Shown one piece after another: positions 8,015-32,373 of a DNA stretch of 64,000 nucleotides (the first letter of the stretch is position 1; each line of letters begins with the position of its first letter). Both the position numbers and the translations under genes were made by a program. The notes under the pieces were generated by a model, which made no database searches, had not been told where the DNA came from, and worked only from the letters and a program-made list of their open reading frames with translations. Source of the stretch: an uncultured Spirochaetales bacterium (GTDB lineage Bacteria > Spirochaetota > Spirochaetia > Sphaerochaetales > Sphaerochaetaceae); the NCBI GenBank assembly GCA_949300325.1, contig CASGDQ010000028.1:1-64000 (forward strand). Reading direction: 5' to 3'.

Positions 8015-8677
8015 ATGATGATAGCAGCTTTGCTGATCCTCGCCGTAGTTATAGCGGTTCATCTTGTTGCGATATACAAGGGGAAGAATACTCTTAAAAG
8101 CGGTACTAAGAGCCTGCTTATACCTATGATGTTCGTTGCTTTCAACAGCGTGGCCGCGAATTGCGGCATCCATGTCGAGAATATAGGGCTCTTGATGGCA
8201 GTTCTCATATTCTATACGATCGGCGATATCCTTTTGGAAATCACCAGCGATAAGAATTTCTTTTTTGCCGGCGCAGTTTCATTCGTCATAGGGCATATAC
8301 TGTATGCGCTTCTTTTTGCTTTGTTCGGCATAAGGCTGGAAATGGTCATCATGTACATAGGCATATGGTTTTTAGGCTTCATATTCCTTTTCAGGACTGT
8401 CATGGATGAGAAAGAAGAAGAGACCAGGTATTATTTGATGTATGCCGCCTGCGTAGCTGTAATGGGAATTGCAATAGGAGGCGCTGATTTTAAGAGCATG
8501 GTAGCTCAGATAACCGCGCTATCTGGTGCAGTTTCGTTTGCTTTTTCAGACAGTCTCATCATTTTGAGAAGAAGGAAGAAGGACGACAGGCAGGACGATA
8601 TGCTCATAATGCTCACATACATAGGGGCGAACATGCTTCTTCTTTCGTCCCTGCTGTTGGAGTATGCTGTCCGTTAG
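8015..8677 (+). CDS. YhhN/TMEM86 family membrane protein (lysoplasmalogenase-like)
   Basis: This 220-residue integral membrane protein has about seven or eight hydrophobic helices. It carries the YhhN family pattern TKSLLIP, GDILLEI, FVIGHILYA and FAFSDSLII, including the conserved acidic residues in the membrane. Mammalian TMEM86 relatives hydrolyse the vinyl-ether bond of lysoplasmalogen. Anaerobes commonly make plasmalogens, so a lipid role is plausible, but the bacterial function is not proven. The gene converges on ccdA, and the two overlap by 4 bases at their stops. Confidence 0.8.
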   Translation: MMIAALLILAVVIAVHLVAIYKGKNTLKSGTKSLLIPMMFVAFNSVAANCGIHVENIGLLMAVLIFYTIGDILLEITSDKNFFFAGAVSFVIGHILYALLFALFGIRLEMVIMYIGIWFLGFIFLFRTVMDEKEEETRYYLMYAACVAVMGIAIGGADFKSMVAQITALSGAVSFAFSDSLIILRRRKKDDRQDDMLIMLTYIGANMLLLSSLLLEYAVR

Positions 8678-9351
8678 CATCCAAGATAGAACATATACAG
8701 CCCCAGTACGAGAATGAGCAGGCCCAGTATGAATTTCGCAATAGCGGATGCTTTGCTCTTTCGCATTCTCCTGATGAATCCGGTGCCTGTCCCAGCAAGG
8801 ACAGCAAGCACTCCATGCCCGATCGAATAAGAGAGCAGCAGAAGGATTGAATATGCGATATTGTCGCTTGAAGCGGCTAGCACAAGGAGTGCGACGAGAG
8901 CCGGAGTTGCACAGGGAGATGAGAACAATCCTCCGAGCATCCCCGATAAAAGCGCTCCCAGATATCCTCTTTTCGTATTTTTTGCAATCAGGTGTGTGGA
9001 TGGGATGAAATCATAGATTTCCCATGTCTGGAGCGCCATAAGCACCATCAGTATTCCAAGAACTATATACCACCAGGATGAACCCTGGCCGATAAGGGTT
9101 CCTGCAAGAGCGGCGGCTGTTCCCATGGCAGTAAAGACCACTGCGCTCCCTAGTGCAAACACGATCGAGTATGACAGCGCCTTTTTTGTATTCTCTGCCG
9201 CATTGCCCACATAGCCTATGACAAGCGGTATGCTTGATAGGGAGCATGGTGTCATGCTTGTAAGAGCGCCTGCGATAAAGGCTATGAGCGGAGTAAGGTA
9301 TGTGTTTTCCCTGATTATTTCAGATAATGTCTCGAGCAGTCCGTTTATCAT
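8674..9351 (-). CDS. CcdA-type thiol-disulfide electron transporter
   Basis: This 225-residue protein with six hydrophobic helices matches the short CcdA/DsbD-beta family. It has the two membrane-embedded redox cysteines in TPCSLSSIP (near residue 36) and SSPCATPA (near residue 145). CcdA passes electrons from cytosolic thioredoxin to an extracytoplasmic thioredoxin-like partner. The partner is encoded immediately upstream with a 4-base overlap, which makes the pairing strong. The pair probably keeps envelope cysteines reduced. Confidence 0.92.
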   Translation of the reverse strand: MINGLLETLSEIIRENTYLTPLIAFIAGALTSMTPCSLSSIPLVIGYVGNAAENTKKALSYSIVFALGSAVVFTAMGTAAALAGTLIGQGSSWWYIVLGILMVLMALQTWEIYDFIPSTHLIAKNTKRGYLGALLSGMLGGLFSSPCATPALVALLVLAASSDNIAYSILLLLSYSIGHGVLAVLAGTGTGFIRRMRKSKASAIAKFILGLLILVLGLYMFYLGC

Positions 9352-9965
9352 TTGAAAGCTCCCATATCCTCGAAAATCATATACATTTCTTCCTTGCTTA
9401 GGATCCCCTGGTGGCTTGTAAGTGCGAGCTCTCCGCTGTCCTTATAAATATACTGGTAAAAATAAATCTTTCCGGCAACCTCTTCTGAAGGCCTATATGG
9501 GCTTCCATCGGAATAAAAGAAATACTGGGTAGGCACCACCATCGCCGGCAGCCCTCCTGTTCTGGATACATCTTCCCATACATCGGCATATCGTACTGTA
9601 ACTTTCCCGTAAGCCTCTTCATAGAATTCTATCAGATCGGGTTTCATAATCTGGCATGGCCCGCAGGATGCGGCGCCGAAATCAAGAAGCAGCGGCAGGC
9701 CGTGGCTGAAGAATTCCTCCTGATCGAAAGCCGTATATTCCATCGGTATCCGCTCTTGAACGGCCAGCTGTTCCAATTCTGCCTCTTCCTGCGCTTTTTC
9801 CTCCAGATTCTCTTTTGGAGATTCTTGCTGTGGAATTTCTGCAGCAATCTGGACCATATTGTCCGATCCTTTGTTTTTTAATAGCCAAACAGCTCCTATC
9901 AATAGGATTATCAATATCGGTACTATTATTTTGAGTGCTTTTTTCTTGTCCATCTTCCTTTCCAT
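9348..9965 (-). CDS. Membrane-tethered thioredoxin-like protein
   Basis: This 205-residue protein has an N-terminal signal anchor (KIIVPILIILLIGAVWLL), a Glu/Gln-rich linker at about residues 40-75, and a thioredoxin fold with the redox motif ASCGPC and a cis-proline loop VVPTQ. It should sit on the outer face of the inner membrane and receive electrons from the CcdA protein encoded next. ATG at 9965 has no Shine-Dalgarno sequence; a TATAAG on the minus strand lies 9 bases upstream. An ATG four codons later (9953) behind AAGGAAG is an alternative start. Confidence 0.88.
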   Translation of the reverse strand: MERKMDKKKALKIIVPILIILLIGAVWLLKNKGSDNMVQIAAEIPQQESPKENLEEKAQEEAELEQLAVQERIPMEYTAFDQEEFFSHGLPLLLDFGAASCGPCQIMKPDLIEFYEEAYGKVTVRYADVWEDVSRTGGLPAMVVPTQYFFYSDGSPYRPSEEVAGKIYFYQYIYKDSGELALTSHQGILSKEEMYMIFEDMGAFK

Positions 9966-10053: not shown

Positions 10054-10794
10054 TTATAGAAACAGCTCGGCCTGCTTTCTTTCCTTGGCTGTGGCATAAA
10101 GCATTTCTCTTATCCTTTCTTTTCTTTCTTTTGAGATGTCTCTTGCCTTAGCCGGGCAAATGTGCACACATCTCATGCATCCTATGCAGGATGAGGCATC
10201 CGTTTCGCTTGGGTCTTTCAGGCTTATCGCGCCTGCGGGGCAGGAGCTTTGGCAAAGTTTGCATTTTGTGCAGATGCTTTTGTCCGCCTTGATATCCGTT
10301 GCAGATGGCTTTAAAGCCTTGTAGGGCCTGTTTCCTGGAATGTGGAAAGATTCTTTATGATTGGATTCCAATTTCTCCATTATCTTCAGGTAGAAGGAGG
10401 AAAGAAGCTTTTCATCTTCCTCGTCGGGCCTGTTTTGAGCAATTGTTCGGATTATGGAGTGCTCCGCGATTGCAGAGACTGCGGCCAGGATGCTGAAGCC
10501 CCTTTCAGACAGCTTGTCTGACAGCTCAAGCAAGGCATCCTCGTAAGCCCTGTTTCCATATACGATCACCGCTACTGCCTTCGTTTTTTCTGCATGAACC
10601 GCCTCAAGGCGCCTGATTGCAAGATCTGGGCATCTTCCTGCATAACAGGGGAGGGCGATGAACGCCAAATCATCCTTTTTGAGAAAAATGTCTGCGCCTT
10701 TCGAGATATCCACTTCCTCTCCGAACGGGTTCAGCATTTTCAGAGCTTTCCTGGTCCCTCCTGTGGGACTGAAGAAAATATTGTAAGACTTCAA
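10054..10794 (-). CDS. EFR1-family flavodoxin-ferredoxin fusion
   Basis: This 246-residue protein has an N-terminal flavodoxin-like domain with the FMN phosphate loop SPTGGTRK near residue 9, and a C-terminal two-cluster ferredoxin domain. The cluster motifs are CTKCKLCQSSCP and CIGCMRCVHICP (CxxCxxCxxxCP twice). EFR1 proteins are small electron carriers of anaerobes with no settled partner. The start is TTG at 10792-10794, supported by AGGAGG 6 bases upstream. It follows the Crp/Fnr gene by one base, so they form one operon and the regulator probably controls this redox protein. Confidence 0.88.
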   Translation of the reverse strand: MKSYNIFFSPTGGTRKALKMLNPFGEEVDISKGADIFLKKDDLAFIALPCYAGRCPDLAIRRLEAVHAEKTKAVAVIVYGNRAYEDALLELSDKLSERGFSILAAVSAIAEHSIIRTIAQNRPDEEDEKLLSSFYLKIMEKLESNHKESFHIPGNRPYKALKPSATDIKADKSICTKCKLCQSSCPAGAISLKDPSETDASSCIGCMRCVHICPAKARDISKERKERIREMLYATAKERKQAELFL

Positions 10795-10795
10795 T

Positions 10796-11425
10796 TCAAT
10801 CCTCCTTGAAATTCAGCAGCTTGAAATTATTGCGGCTGTATTCTATCAGGCCTTCCTGTTTCATTTTCATCAGTACGAGCGAAAGCGCGCTTCTATCTGT
10901 TGCAAGAAAATCGGCCATCTCCTGCCTGTCCAGATTTATTTTGATGGATGCATTTCCTTGCTTTTGGCACTCATCCTTTAAATAAGATAATACCTTCTCC
11001 TTTATAGTCCTTTGGCTGAGGTGTTCTATCCTTTTTGTAAGATAGAGGTTCCTGTTTGCCAATATTGTGAGGATGTTTATTAGAAGCAGGTTCTCCTTTT
11101 TGACATTCTCAATCGGAAACCAGATTATGCTGCAGTCTGTCTTTGCGCTTATAGTGACAGGGGAAGGGGCGGAGGTAAAAGAAAACGATTCGGCGAACAG
11201 TTCTGTCTCATAGGCGTTCGAGACCAATGTCCCATGTCCTTCGTAATCATATCGGATTATGCTGATTGCTCCTTCCTGCACCTCCCCGAAGCAAGCAACG
11301 CTTTCACCCTTTTCTATGATGATCCCGCCCTTCTTATAAGATTCCTTATAGCAGCCGAGCCTTTCCATCAAGGCCTCCTTGTTTTCGATTCCAGAGAACA
11401 AGGTGTCAGTATTCGATAATATCAT
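10796..11425 (-). CDS. Crp/Fnr family transcription regulator
   Basis: This 209-residue protein has an N-terminal cyclic-nucleotide-like beta-barrel at about residues 20-110 (IIIEKGESVACFGEVQEGAI), a long dimerisation helix, and a C-terminal winged helix-turn-helix. The recognition helix region TDRSALSLVLMKMK lacks the Glu of classic CRP/FNR helices, so a non-classical operator is expected. No N-terminal Cys cluster is seen, so it is not an FNR-type iron-sulfur sensor. The ATG is directly preceded by a 14-bp palindrome that also covers the -10 box, which predicts autorepression. The message appears leaderless. The effector is unknown. Confidence 0.88.
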   Translation of the reverse strand: MILSNTDTLFSGIENKEALMERLGCYKESYKKGGIIIEKGESVACFGEVQEGAISIIRYDYEGHGTLVSNAYETELFAESFSFTSAPSPVTISAKTDCSIIWFPIENVKKENLLLINILTILANRNLYLTKRIEHLSQRTIKEKVLSYLKDECQKQGNASIKINLDRQEMADFLATDRSALSLVLMKMKQEGLIEYSRNNFKLLNFKED

Positions 11426-11439
11426 GTTGTAATTACAAC
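11426..11439. promoter_or_regulatory. Predicted Crp/Fnr operator, perfect 14-bp palindrome
   Basis: GTTGTAATTACAAC is a perfect inverted repeat touching the crp start codon and covering its -10 box. A copy with one altered base lies at 29587-29600 before an ABC transporter. Confidence 0.7.
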
Positions 11440-11460
11440 GGATAATAAGCTGTTTGTCAA
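11426..11460 (-). promoter_or_regulatory. Consensus promoter of the Crp/Fnr gene (leaderless)
   Basis: On the minus strand TTGACA (11455-11460), a 17-base spacer, TGTAAT (11432-11437) and six bases lead directly to the ATG. No Shine-Dalgarno sequence exists. Confidence 0.75.
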
Positions 11461-27541: not shown

Positions 27542-29380
27542 TTATTCCCAACAACCTTCAAGGGCCATGCAGCCGTAGCCTTCCACGATGAACGGCCTGC
27601 CTGGTTCAATAGTCCTTTTTGAAAGCAGATCAGTATAATACCCCGTGAAGTAGTTGAAGGCCACACTCTCCGGGTCGGGGGAGTAGTTGAAAATGCATAA
27701 GAGCACTTTTGATCCCTTTTTCCTTCTTAATGCGAACACATGCCTGTTTCCGCTGTCCCAGGTGCTGACCTCGGCATCAGCGCAAAAGAGCTCGCTTTCT
27801 GCCCTTATTTTGTAAAGCTGTCCGAGTATTCCATACAGCCTGTTTTCAAGACTTCCTTCCTTTTTTATCCTCTGGGCCTTCTTCCAGTCGAACTTGGACC
27901 TGTGCAAGTACCTTGAATCGTCCTTTTTAAGCTCATCCTCTTTGTATGAGTAGTCGTTTAGCTGCCCGATCTCGTCGCCGCTGTTGAGCAGCGGAAAACC
28001 GCGCAGGAAGAATGCCGTTGCATAAAGCAGCCTGTAGCGCGCAACTGCATCTTCAAGCTCATCCTTATCATTATCCTTGAGAGCTTTTTCTATTCCGCAT
28101 AGCGAGGCTGTCGTGCCGCAGCTTCTTGCGTCGAGCGTCTTTGGATCGTAGTTGTACAGCTCTCCTAGTGAGAACGAGCCAGGAAACCGGCCCTGGTAGA
28201 ATTCGTATTGGAATATCTTGTGCTTGAGCGGATCTGCGCCGATCAAGGGCTCTTTCTGCTCATCGAATCCCCAGCCGATATCATCGTGGCATCTGAGGTA
28301 GTTCACGAAATTGGCGTTTTCCCCGAGGCTTAACAGATCCACCGTCTGATACTCCAGCAGACGCACATCCCTGCTTGAGAGGGCGCCCCAGATGTTGACC
28401 ATGGAAGCTACTCCATAGAGCAGATGGCACTCAGGCTTCTCTTTTGTTCCAAAGTATGCCGCCAGCTCCTTTGGAGCCATCACGACCTCTCCTTTGAGGA
28501 TGACAGCCGGGCAGACGATCTCAAGAATCATTCTGATCATTCTTACAATCGTATGCACCTGCTTGAGATTCCTGCAGTTTGTCCCTATTTCCTTCCAGAT
28601 GTACGGAACCGCATCAAGACGGAATATCTCGATGCCGTAGTTTGCCCAGAGTAGCATCGAGAACACCATGTCGTTGAACACTGCAGGGTTTTTGTAGTTT
28701 AAATCCCATTGGGTGGGATAAAATGAGGTGAACACCCATTTTCCCATCTTCTGGGAATATGTGAAATTGCCTGGAGCCGATTCCGGGAACACCTCCGGGC
28801 AGGTCTTTTCGTATTCATCCGGTATTCTCCGGTCTGGAAAGCATAGGTATCTGTTCTGGTATGAAATATCCCCGTCCATAGCCCTCTGGGCCCATTCATG
28901 CTCGCTGGATGTGTGGTTCATGACCATGTCCATGCAAAGGCTGATCCCGTTTTTTCTGAGCTCGTCTGCAAGATCTTCAAGATCCTTGTTGCTTCCGAAC
29001 TTCGGATCAACCGTGTTGAAATCGCTTACGGCAAATCCTCCGTCATTGTTTTCCTTCGGAGTTTTTAAAAATGGCATGAGATGCAGGTATGTAATGTGCA
29101 GATCCTTGAGGTAGGCGACCTTGGCCTTCAGCTTTTTGAAGGTACCAGCAAAGAGCTCGGTGTACATGGTCATCCCAAGCATCTTCCCCTCCAAATACCA
29201 GAAGCTGTCTGAAAGCCTCCTTTCATCGAGTTCTTTCAGATCCTCCTTTCTCTTGGCAAAGTAATCCTCCATACCTTTTTCCAGGGCATCAAGCATAGCC
29301 CTGTCATTGTATAATTCCATGTATAGCCATTCGAGTTCGTCCTTATGACGCAGAAGTCTCGAGTTAAAAGTGTCCATCAT
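27542..29380 (-). CDS. Amylosucrase-like GH13 enzyme
   Basis: This 612-residue alpha-amylase superfamily protein is closest to subfamily GH13_4 (amylosucrase or sucrose hydrolase). It has the long N-terminal helical region, DMVMNHTSSEHEWA, the GNFT and QWDLNY segments, the nucleophile in FRLDAVPYIWK, the acid/base Glu in LKGEVV and the third acid in CHDD. Amylosucrases split sucrose and either build alpha-glucan or release glucose and fructose; fructose would feed the PfkB kinase at 36747. ATG 29380 or 29377 follows GGAGG; the second has better spacing. A LacI-type operator lies at 29403-29420. Confidence 0.88.
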   Translation of the reverse strand: MMDTFNSRLLRHKDELEWLYMELYNDRAMLDALEKGMEDYFAKRKEDLKELDERRLSDSFWYLEGKMLGMTMYTELFAGTFKKLKAKVAYLKDLHITYLHLMPFLKTPKENNDGGFAVSDFNTVDPKFGSNKDLEDLADELRKNGISLCMDMVMNHTSSEHEWAQRAMDGDISYQNRYLCFPDRRIPDEYEKTCPEVFPESAPGNFTYSQKMGKWVFTSFYPTQWDLNYKNPAVFNDMVFSMLLWANYGIEIFRLDAVPYIWKEIGTNCRNLKQVHTIVRMIRMILEIVCPAVILKGEVVMAPKELAAYFGTKEKPECHLLYGVASMVNIWGALSSRDVRLLEYQTVDLLSLGENANFVNYLRCHDDIGWGFDEQKEPLIGADPLKHKIFQYEFYQGRFPGSFSLGELYNYDPKTLDARSCGTTASLCGIEKALKDNDKDELEDAVARYRLLYATAFFLRGFPLLNSGDEIGQLNDYSYKEDELKKDDSRYLHRSKFDWKKAQRIKKEGSLENRLYGILGQLYKIRAESELFCADAEVSTWDSGNRHVFALRRKKGSKVLLCIFNYSPDPESVAFNYFTGYYTDLLSKRTIEPGRPFIVEGYGCMALEGCWE

Positions 29381-29402
29381 AACCTCCGGAAGGTAATGCT
29401 GT

Positions 29403-29450
29403 ATATCAACCGCTTAACATAAGAATATACCCGCCTTTTACTTCTTGCAA
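29403..29450 (-). promoter_or_regulatory. Promoter and LacI-type operator of the amylosucrase gene
   Basis: On the minus strand TTGCAA (29445-29450) and TATTCT (29422-29427) are spaced 17 bases. The operator at 29403-29420 reads ATGTTAAGCGGTTGATAT, aligned with the sites at 24199 and 35623, and covers the predicted transcription start. Confidence 0.65.
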
Positions 29451-29456
29451 GTAAAA
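29436..29456. repeat. Inverted repeat over the amylosucrase -35 box
   Basis: TTTTACTT and AAGTAAAA form perfect 8-bp arms around a 5-base centre. The repeat differs from the LacI sites and may bind a second regulator. Confidence 0.4.
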
Positions 29457-29586
29457 TCTTGCCTTATCCAGGTCTTTTAGGACTACAATGTGCTGCTTAC
29501 GGAAAACATAGTATGATATGCGGTTTCAGATTCTCTGATTGGATATTTTTTATTGTGGTTAGCTTTGTAAAACAAATTGGGTCTGC

Positions 29587-29600
29587 GTTGTAATTGCAAC
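29587..29600. promoter_or_regulatory. Second Crp/Fnr operator, before the TauABC-like operon
   Basis: GTTGTAATTGCAAC differs from the perfect palindrome at 11426 by one base. A TAGACT at 29623-29628 would put the site centre about 41 bases before transcription start, a normal activator position. Confidence 0.6.
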
Positions 29601-29651
29601 ATATTTTTAATCTGCAATCTGATAGACTCATCCAAGTGGAGGATGATGAAA

Positions 29652-30650
29652 ATGAAAAAGAAAATATATCTGGTCCTGATCCTTCTTCTTTCTGCGGCAT
29701 CGCTTTTTTCCGCCGGAGCAAAGGAGGATCCTTCCGTTGTCCTTTCATCGGTGCAAGTCCCTGTGAAAGTCGATATCGCTGCGCTCAAAGGGCCGACGGC
29801 CATGGGCATGGTCAAGCTCATGTCCGATTCAGAAAACGGATTGAACAGCGACGGCAATGAGTACTCCTTCATTCTTGAGGGCGCAGTGGATGCTGTTACT
29901 CCTAAGCTTGTGAAGGGGGAGGTGGATATTTCCGCAATCCCTGCCAATCTAGCCTCGGTCCTATACAACAATACCGGCAACCAGATCCAGGTCCTCGTCA
30001 TAAACACGCTCGGCGTACTTTATATTGCAGAAAAGGGCGATACAGTTAAAAGCGTCGAGGATCTGAGGGGCAGGACGATCTATGCTTCAGGCAAGGGCGC
30101 GACTCCGGAGTATGCGCTCATGTACATACTCGGCCAGAATGGGCTTGAGGTGGGAAAGGACGTATTCATCGAATGGCGGAGCGAGCACGCTGAGTGCGTA
30201 GCGGCCCTTCTTGCATCCGATGATGCGGTTGCGATGCTTCCTCAGCCTTTCCTTACAACCGCGCTGATGAACAATCCCGATGTGCGCATAGCTCTCGACC
30301 TCAATACCCTGTGGTATGAGAAGATGGGTTCGGAGCTCATTACAGGCGTTGTTGCCGCCAGAAGGGATTTTGTAGAGAATAATGAGGATGCGGTCAGGGC
30401 ATTTCTTGAAAGCTATGAGCAATCAGTGGAATTTGTCAATTCGAACAATGCAGAGGCTGCCAAGCTGATCGGAGATTATGGTATAATCGCAGAAAAGGTG
30501 GCCCTGAAGGCGCTTCCCGGATGCAATATAACCTTCATTTCAGGAGAAAGGATGCAGCAGGCGCTTTCAAACTACCTTGAAGTGCTTTATGAGCAGAACC
30601 CTGCTAGTGTCGGAGGTAAGGTCCCTGAAGAAGGATTCTATTTCAAATAA
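29652..30650 (+). CDS. TauA/NMT1-like ABC transporter substrate-binding protein
   Basis: A signal peptide (YLVLILLLSAASLFSAGAKED) precedes a type II periplasmic binding fold with ALKGPTAMGMVKL, KGEVDISAIPANL and MLPQPF, placing it in the COG0715-like nitrate/sulfonate/thiamine-precursor group. The start is set at ATG 29652, 9 bases after GGAGG; ATGs at 29643 and 29646 are also open. It heads a binding protein-permease-ATPase operon and carries an upstream copy of the Crp/Fnr palindrome. The substrate cannot be assigned. Confidence 0.85.
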   Translation: MKKKIYLVLILLLSAASLFSAGAKEDPSVVLSSVQVPVKVDIAALKGPTAMGMVKLMSDSENGLNSDGNEYSFILEGAVDAVTPKLVKGEVDISAIPANLASVLYNNTGNQIQVLVINTLGVLYIAEKGDTVKSVEDLRGRTIYASGKGATPEYALMYILGQNGLEVGKDVFIEWRSEHAECVAALLASDDAVAMLPQPFLTTALMNNPDVRIALDLNTLWYEKMGSELITGVVAARRDFVENNEDAVRAFLESYEQSVEFVNSNNAEAAKLIGDYGIIAEKVALKALPGCNITFISGERMQQALSNYLEVLYEQNPASVGGKVPEEGFYFK

Positions 30651-31383
30651 GATTACGAAAGCCCTGCCGGTTGCGCTCTGGCTGCTTGTCTGGCAGGCCG
30701 CAGCCGTCTGGATAGCTCAGGATGTGCTGCTTGTCGGCCCTGTGAGGGTCCTGGAAAGACTGTTTGAGCTTGCGGGGACGCTTTCATTTTGGTCGAGCAT
30801 AGCTTTCAGCCTGAAAAGGATTTTCGCCGGGCTTTTTCTCGCGCTTTTAATAAGCGTTCCCACTGCCTATCTTTCCTACAGGAGCAGGATTTTCTCAGCG
30901 ATGCTGGAGCCTGTGATCCAGTTCATGAAGGCCACTCCCGTTGCAAGCATAGTCATACTTGTCCTGATATGGGTGAACAGCCGGAACCTTTCGGTGGTCA
31001 TTTCCTTTATCATGGTGTTTCCTGTGATGCACTCCTCGATCTTGGACGGGCTGAAAAACGTGGATGGCGGCCTTCTAGAGATGGCCGAAGTGTATGCTGT
31101 GGGCAGAAGCAAGAAGATAAGGTATGTCTACATACCCGAGCTCATACCATTTTTCCAGAACGGCATTACCATCGCTTTGGGCCTTTGCTTCAAAAGCGGA
31201 ATTGCAGCCGAGGTGATTGCAATCCCTTCAGGGTCCATGGGAGAGAAGCTGTATGAAGCAAAGATCTATCTTTCAACACCCGATCTGTTTGCGTGGACTA
31301 TAACAATCATAATCCTGGCAAAGGCTTTTGAGATGTTCTTCCTTTTCCTGCTGCGTGCTGCAGTAAGGAGGATAGAAATATGA
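30589..31383 (+). CDS. TauC-like ABC transporter permease
   Basis: This is a BPD-type inner-membrane permease with about six helices, the loop MAEVYAVGRSKKIRYVYIPEL as EAA-like motif and a C-terminal FLLRAAVRRIEI. It overlaps the 3' end of the binding-protein gene. The start is uncertain: ATG 30589 lacks a ribosome site, while CTG at 30625 lies 7 bases after a perfect GGAGGT (30612-30617). ATG 30589 is given as the conservative choice. It overlaps the ATPase gene by 4 bases. Confidence 0.85.
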   Translation: MSRTLLVSEVRSLKKDSISNKITKALPVALWLLVWQAAAVWIAQDVLLVGPVRVLERLFELAGTLSFWSSIAFSLKRIFAGLFLALLISVPTAYLSYRSRIFSAMLEPVIQFMKATPVASIVILVLIWVNSRNLSVVISFIMVFPVMHSSILDGLKNVDGGLLEMAEVYAVGRSKKIRYVYIPELIPFFQNGITIALGLCFKSGIAAEVIAIPSGSMGEKLYEAKIYLSTPDLFAWTITIIILAKAFEMFFLFLLRAAVRRIEI

Positions 31384-31967
31384 AGATAACGGAGCTTGGA
31401 AAGAGTTTTGGTGAAAAGAAGGTCTTTTCTTCCTTTAACCTTGAGATTCCGGAGCATGAGCTTACCGTTTTCATGGGGCCTTCCGGGTCGGGCAAGACGA
31501 CCCTTTTCAGGATAATACTCGGACTTGAGACGCCTGATTCCGGGACGGTGTGCTTGCAAGGCAGGGTGGGTGCTCTGTTCCAGGAGGACCGCCTTATAAA
31601 AAACCTCAGCGTGATCAAAAACCTCATGCTGGTGACGGACGATAGGGCCCAGGCGGCTCAGGCCTTAGCTGAGGTGGGGCTTGCGGGAGAGATGAAAACA
31701 AAGGCTCATGACCTTTCCGGAGGCATGGCGAGGCGTGTTGCTTTAGTCCGCGCGCTGCTTGCGCCGTTTGATACGCTGGTTGTAGATGAGCCTTTTTCCG
31801 GCCTGGATCCGGAATCCAAGAAGCTTGCAGCAGATTTATTGCTGAAAAAGACAGCAGGGCGCACGGTGCTCTTGATCACTCATGATGCGGATGACCTGGC
31901 TCTTCTTAAAAATCCCCGGGTGGTCGAATTCCCGTCTGGGCGCGTATCCGGTGGCCATGGGTTATAA
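31380..31967 (+). CDS. TauB-like ABC transporter ATPase, short
   Basis: This 195-residue ATPase has Walker A GPSGSGKTT, Q-loop FQEDRL, signature LSGGMARRVALVRAL, Walker B LVVDEPFSGLD and LITHD. It is about 50 residues shorter than typical TauB/SsuB proteins, mainly at the C-terminus, yet all catalytic elements are present. It completes the importer encoded from 29652. Confidence 0.9.
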   Translation: MKITELGKSFGEKKVFSSFNLEIPEHELTVFMGPSGSGKTTLFRIILGLETPDSGTVCLQGRVGALFQEDRLIKNLSVIKNLMLVTDDRAQAAQALAEVGLAGEMKTKAHDLSGGMARRVALVRALLAPFDTLVVDEPFSGLDPESKKLAADLLLKKTAGRTVLLITHDADDLALLKNPRVVEFPSGRVSGGHGL

Positions 31968-32007
31968 AAGATAGTTTCTTGTGCTATCATGAAGCGTGGA
32001 GTTGGAG

Positions 32008-32373
32008 ATGGTTTTGACAGATGAAGATGTTTTGAAAATCAGGAACATGCTCGGGGATAAGCCCGAAAGATGCATAATTGCCGATTGTGTCTATAAGTAC
32101 GGCTCCTTCTGCGGATTTTCCTTTTCCATATCGGATACCAAGGGCAGTTACATCTCAATCCCTTACTCGGAGCTTGATGCGGGAAGCTATCAGGAATTGG
32201 CAGAGCGTCTTTCTGCAAGAAAGAGCGAGCCGTTGAAGACGGAAGCCTCAAAGGTGCTGTCGGAAATAGTCTTCATTGTCAGGGAGCTTGGGCTCGTTTT
32301 GAAGGATGAAGAGGTGGAGGGGCTTAAGGAGCTTACCCATCCTGTGCTTCTTGCCAATGCTGCAAAACGCTGA
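32008..32373 (+). CDS. Small conserved-looking protein of unknown function
   Basis: This protein of about 121 residues has no signal peptide or membrane segment. A mixed alpha/beta N-terminus (CIIADCVYKYGSFCGFSFSISD) is followed by a helical C-terminal half. ATG 32008 has GGAG about 6 bases upstream. GTG at 31996 lies 5 bases after a TATCAT box and could be a leaderless start instead. I do not recognise the family. It stands alone between the transporter and pepF. Confidence 0.55.
   Translation: MVLTDEDVLKIRNMLGDKPERCIIADCVYKYGSFCGFSFSISDTKGSYISIPYSELDAGSYQELAERLSARKSEPLKTEASKVLSEIVFIVRELGLVLKDEEVEGLKELTHPVLLANAAKR

Follow-up and report, generated by a model that had tools for sequence, protein, structure and literature searches.

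At Escherichia coli promoters activated by CRP or FNR in the class II manner, the regulator site is centred at -41.5, the -35 element is poor or absent, and the -10 element is extended. Within the wider Crp/Fnr family, the HcpR and HcpR2 regulons of anaerobes have been described by comparative genomics (Rodionov et al. 2005, PMC1274295; 2004, PMC545781). HcpR is an NO-responsive regulator of nitrosative stress that controls hcp and frdX. The HcpR2 motif, GTAACnnnnGTTAC, is a 14-bp palindrome with a 5-4-5 geometry (PMC1274295).

The locus described here lies in a 64,000-nucleotide stretch of DNA (the window) from an uncultured Spirochaetales bacterium. It shares with the HcpR and HcpR2 systems a Crp/Fnr-family regulator without the FNR cysteines, a 14-bp 5-4-5 palindrome, a ferredoxin-type partner, and activator and repressor sites, here predicted ones, that are distinguished by their overlap with the -35 or the -10. 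It differs in its half-site, which is GTTGT where that of HcpR2 is GTAAC, and in its constant target, which is an ABC importer, no hcp gene having been seen beside the regulator. Unlike most of its relatives in the HcpR-like class, the regulator also lacks a CxxxCxxH loop. The features are:

8674 to 9351, minus strand: CcdA/DsbD-like membrane protein
9348 to 9965, minus strand: thioredoxin-like protein (CGPC) with an N-terminal hydrophobic stretch
10054 to 10794, minus strand: EFR1-family flavodoxin/ferredoxin protein, beginning one base past the end of the regulator gene
10796 to 11425, minus strand: Crp/Fnr-family regulator of 209 aa with an HcpR-like fold (profile and fold matches)
11426 to 11439, no strand assigned: operator GTTGTAATTACAAC, abutting the regulator ATG and containing the -10 TGTAAT (11437 to 11432, minus strand)
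11455 to 11460, minus strand: -35 element (TTGACA) for the regulator gene, separated by 17 bp from TGTAAT, with the predicted start at the A of the ATG
29587 to 29600, no strand assigned: operator GTTGTAATTGCAAC, centre at -41.5, present in all six regulator-bearing genomes
29620 to 29628, plus strand: extended -10 TGATAGACT, hexamer TAGACT at 29623 to 29628, 22 nt 3' of the operator
29652 to 30650, plus strand: substrate-binding protein of the TauA/SsuA/NMT1 fold (profile and structure comparison)
30616 to 31383, plus strand: ABC permease (BPD_transp_1), exact start uncertain
31380 to 31967, plus strand: ABC ATPase (profile match)

We consider it likely that the window's Crp/Fnr regulator activates the importer in a class II manner and represses its own gene through the same palindrome. 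The palindrome would be the operator of this regulator, and a dimer bound at -41.5 would contact RNA polymerase as at class II promoters, switching on a TauABC-type importer from a promoter that has an extended -10 but lacks a clear -35. Bound in front of the regulator gene, the dimer would lie across both the -10 and the transcription start and so limit its own leaderless message, and with it EFR1 and probably the thioredoxin-like and CcdA-like proteins encoded downstream. The regulator scores above the cut-off for both of its domains (PF00027, cNMP_binding, 38.5 bits; PF13545, HTH_Crp_2, 39.2 bits), and the best TM-score among the Foldseek matches listed is to Porphyromonas gingivalis HcpR (9day; 0.72, 24% identity). 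The EFR1 protein matches NF038196 at 80.3 bits against a cut-off of 75.

The two operators lie about 18 kb apart and differ by a single base, and the site at 29587 to 29600 lies 65 nt upstream of the ATG that opens a binding protein-permease-ATPase operon (29652 to 31967); the initial annotation had described this arrangement, and the coordinates and sequences agree. Across the 2.3 Mb genome, exact GTTGTAATTRCAAC occurs only at these two positions. Allowing up to one mismatch over the whole 2.32 Mb gives three places, namely both operators and a weaker one in contig C59, and a looser palindrome, GTTGNANNTNCAAC, likewise occurs at three places, against none for the reversed control. Within the window alone, eight matches with up to three mismatches were found where 4.3 were expected, a count reached by 8 of 100 shuffles; the motif count in the window is thus not statistically striking, and the evidence is therefore comparative. 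The palindromes of this genome precede only the regulator gene, the transporter and a glycoside-hydrolase gene. The last of these sites, GTTGTATTTTCAAC, lies 5 nt 5' of a glycoside-hydrolase-like gene (locus L107, 2998 to 3011; G000 C27:7497-7510) and also occurs in G023 and G034, but there the entire intergenic region is conserved; on its sequence, this gene is a possible third target.

Footprinting covered 48 genomes from one genus (Candidatus Ornithospirochaeta-like). Nearly all members of this genus have the transporter, and a regulator ortholog is present in six of the 48: the window's own and five at 94, 76, 49, 46 and 46% identity, together forming one clade with support of 99/99. The initial annotation had named loss of the site despite retention of the regulator as the outcome that would count against it, and the comparison that bears on this was run and upheld the prediction: the palindrome stands 5' of the transporter in all six genomes with the regulator and in none of the 40 same-genus genomes that lack the regulator and have a readable transporter start. 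The site reads GTTGYAATTRCAAC in G000, G023, G034, G019 and G020 and GTTGCAATTGCAAT in G031, and begins at -62 to -67 across the six. Between divergent lineages it is 86-100% identical, against 25-35% for the 60 nt upstream. From these alignments, the comparison establishes the identity of the operator, its co-occurrence with the regulator and its conserved spacing.

The palindrome matches inspected in five regulator-less genomes (G009, G010, G012, G061 and G068) all lie within coding sequence, in a pstA-like, a parE-like, a nucleoside phosphorylase, an oxidoreductase and a cas3-like gene. Additional sites in G019 and G020 (at a trpB-like gene, an ABC exporter and a MATE gene) were not counted because they too lie inside coding sequence. 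The next-best regulator match in the family, in G137 (41%), was rejected as an ortholog because the CxxxCxxH loop is present in it and the transporter of that genome lacks an upstream site. In G031 (locus L037), an NtrC-type gene is retained 5' of the transporter, as in most of the genus, with the palindrome between them, an intermediate arrangement.

The spacing between site and promoter is as constant as the site itself. In each of the six genomes a TAnnnT hexamer lies exactly 22 nt 3' of the palindrome, five of these hexamers having TGn in front, and, when sequences are anchored on the site, no other offset from 0 to 29 gives TAnnnT in more than three of the six. The sixth, G031, has a weak hexamer, TATCCT, without TGn, and its site is an imperfect palindrome. 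Because the hexamer lies 22 nt downstream, and assuming the usual 7 nt from the -10 hexamer to the start, the operator is centred at -41.5; the initial annotation, from the TAGACT hexamer, had placed it at about -41. On this geometry, the transporter site is at the class II activator position in all six genomes. No clear -35 lies 15-19 bp from the extended -10 in the window, and across the transporter promoters no -35 at that distance matches better than 3 of 6 bases. The transporter promoter therefore resembles the E. coli class II promoters in the position of its site, in its poor or absent -35 and in its extended -10; it differs in its half-site, and its class here is predicted from sequence.

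The geometry at the regulator gene is of the other kind. The site there had been proposed to overlap the -10, and this holds, with TGTAAT inside the operator and 17 bp from a perfect TTGACA. Four of the six genomes have a site at the regulator gene, and all four show a TTGACA-like -35 (TTGACA in G000, G023 and G034, TTTACA in G031), the same 17 bp and TGTAAT (TGTACT) within the operator, and in those four the predicted transcription start is the A of the ATG. The conserved -10 inside the operator and the predicted start on the ATG point to autorepression of a leaderless message. Both promoter geometries are conserved across diverged flanks, and the contrast between an activator and a repressor position drawn in the initial annotation is thereby backed by comparison; that the window's regulator binds the sites, and the sign of its action at each promoter, we infer.

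The regulator belongs to a broad group of relatives. The CxxxCxxH loop is carried by 20 of 24 relatives and missing in the six orthologs, and residues R and S of the recognition helix are invariant across the family. Most relatives carry GTTG-N6-CAAC 5' of their own gene. HcpR-like paralogs across the Spirochaetia (loci L010-L032, for example L012, L014, L017 and L028) have tGTTGttttt(A/G)CAACa about 40-66 nt before a conserved LFxGI motif, and the site before their own genes suggests family-wide autoregulation. In G023 (C9) and G034 (C4), GTTGGAGAAACAAC separates a paralogous Crp/Fnr gene from a divergently transcribed FrdX-like ferredoxin gene (L166, L167), a layout resembling that of hcpR and frdX. 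In G050 (C38; L175, 1464 to 1477), a short gene followed by a DUF438-like gene has GTTGCAATTGCAAC where it is predicted to start, perhaps a target of the paralog there. Other Crp-like genes are also found beside the importer: in G083 (L098) one adjoins the transporter divergently, with GTTGCCGTTGCAAC between, and in G058 (L097) a different small Crp-like gene lies just 5' of it, with similar helix-turn-helix ends of genes in G051 (L096) and G056 (L095). From these arrangements, the importer seems to have been placed under Crp/Fnr control repeatedly.

The transporter site could be read in other ways. The regulator might repress the transporter too, from a promoter of the form TTGTAA-18-TGTAAT whose -10 lies inside the operator, so that both sites would be repressor sites. 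The transporter operator does hold such an alternative -10, TGTAAT, without a conserved -35; a -35 matching at 4 of 6 bases stands 18 bp before it in G000 and G023, and the regulator gene shows this arrangement plainly. However, a -35 is not found at one conserved spacing before it in G034, G031, G019 and G020, and this inner -10 becomes TGCAAT in G034 and G031, whereas all six genomes retain the outer one at 22 nt, which makes repression of the transporter improbable in our view. More doubtful still is recognition of the site by an HcpR-like paralog in place of the window's regulator. The recognition helix of the paralogs is very similar, their own genes are preceded by GTTG-N6-CAAC, and those in G023 and G034 might bind as well, but G016, G036, G039 and G045 have paralogs and no site before the transporter; the site tracks the window's regulator, not the paralog. 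Finally, although the match count within the window is not significant, we give almost no credence to a chance palindrome or to one that owes its conservation to something else, for instance an mRNA element, given the exact co-occurrence, the fixed spacing, the diverged flanks and the lack of any Rfam match in 29380 to 29700; a riboswitch 5' of the transporter was rejected on the same empty search. Activation of the importer by the window's regulator is the reading we retain.

How much weight co-occurrence can bear depends on its history. The six genomes represent about four divergent lineages, and the transporter tree, on which they form one clade with six genomes that have neither regulator nor site, implies one or two gains or losses; it needs two changes, but the data do not reject a single origin (p-AU 0.179). 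With so few independent events, co-occurrence alone is weak statistically, and it is the fixed spacing and the diverged flanks that carry the argument. In G016 the rlmKL-like gene that precedes the regulator elsewhere is still near EFR1 and the regulator is gone, an arrangement suggesting that regulator and site were lost together.

The initial annotation had further predicted that EFR1 and the importer act together, and the comparison does not support this in the form proposed. EFR1 lies directly 3' of the regulator in G000, G023, G034 and G031 and lacks a separate site, its only tie being its place downstream of that gene. Regulator, transporter and site all persist in G019 and G020 without an EFR1 ortholog, and G016, G002, G009 and others have EFR1 without the regulator. 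The transporter is thus the core, constant target, and by gene content the link of EFR1 to regulator and transporter is weaker than that between regulator and transporter. The thioredoxin-CcdA pair of G019 and G020 is located elsewhere, and no site was found at it. A literature search on the motif and EFR1 returned nothing relevant.

The importer shares its gene order and binding-protein fold with the sulfonate importers TauABC and SsuABC (TauA 6ssy, SsuA 2x26) but scores far below the NCBIfam cut-offs, the binding protein reaching 66.1 bits for the sulfonate-binding family TIGR01728 against a threshold of 163.5, and no sulfonate enzymes lie nearby. The closest solved structure to the binding protein is 3hn0, which has no assigned function or ligand, followed by TauA and SsuA, and the fold pointed to no substrate. 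The transporter neighbourhoods at 13 loci of relatives contain no consistent enzyme pointing to a substrate. In several distant relatives (L158, L159, L164 and L177), the binding-protein gene is directly 3' of tyrS. In the window, the operon is followed by a conserved ORF of 125 aa (31996 to 32373), with no Pfam or NCBIfam match, and then by a peptidase M3 (PepF-like) gene.

A more speculative and, we think, rather unlikely extension is that the candidate sensor loop disappeared from an HcpR-type regulator whose operator was retained, and that this protein turned into a dedicated switch with two modes, a class II activator of an importer and a brake on its own leaderless mRNA, with transporter output set mainly by feedback on the level of the regulator. 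More broadly, the predicted gut-spirochaete regulon adds a solid new case to a familiar type of gene control. For a genus of uncultured gut spirochaetes it offers a clean regulon open to testing, in which the distance of one palindrome from the -10 would decide between activation and repression, and the operator GTTGYAATTRCAAC, together with the family-wide GTTG-N6-CAAC, is usable for annotating a large and little-studied Crp/Fnr branch in the Spirochaetia.
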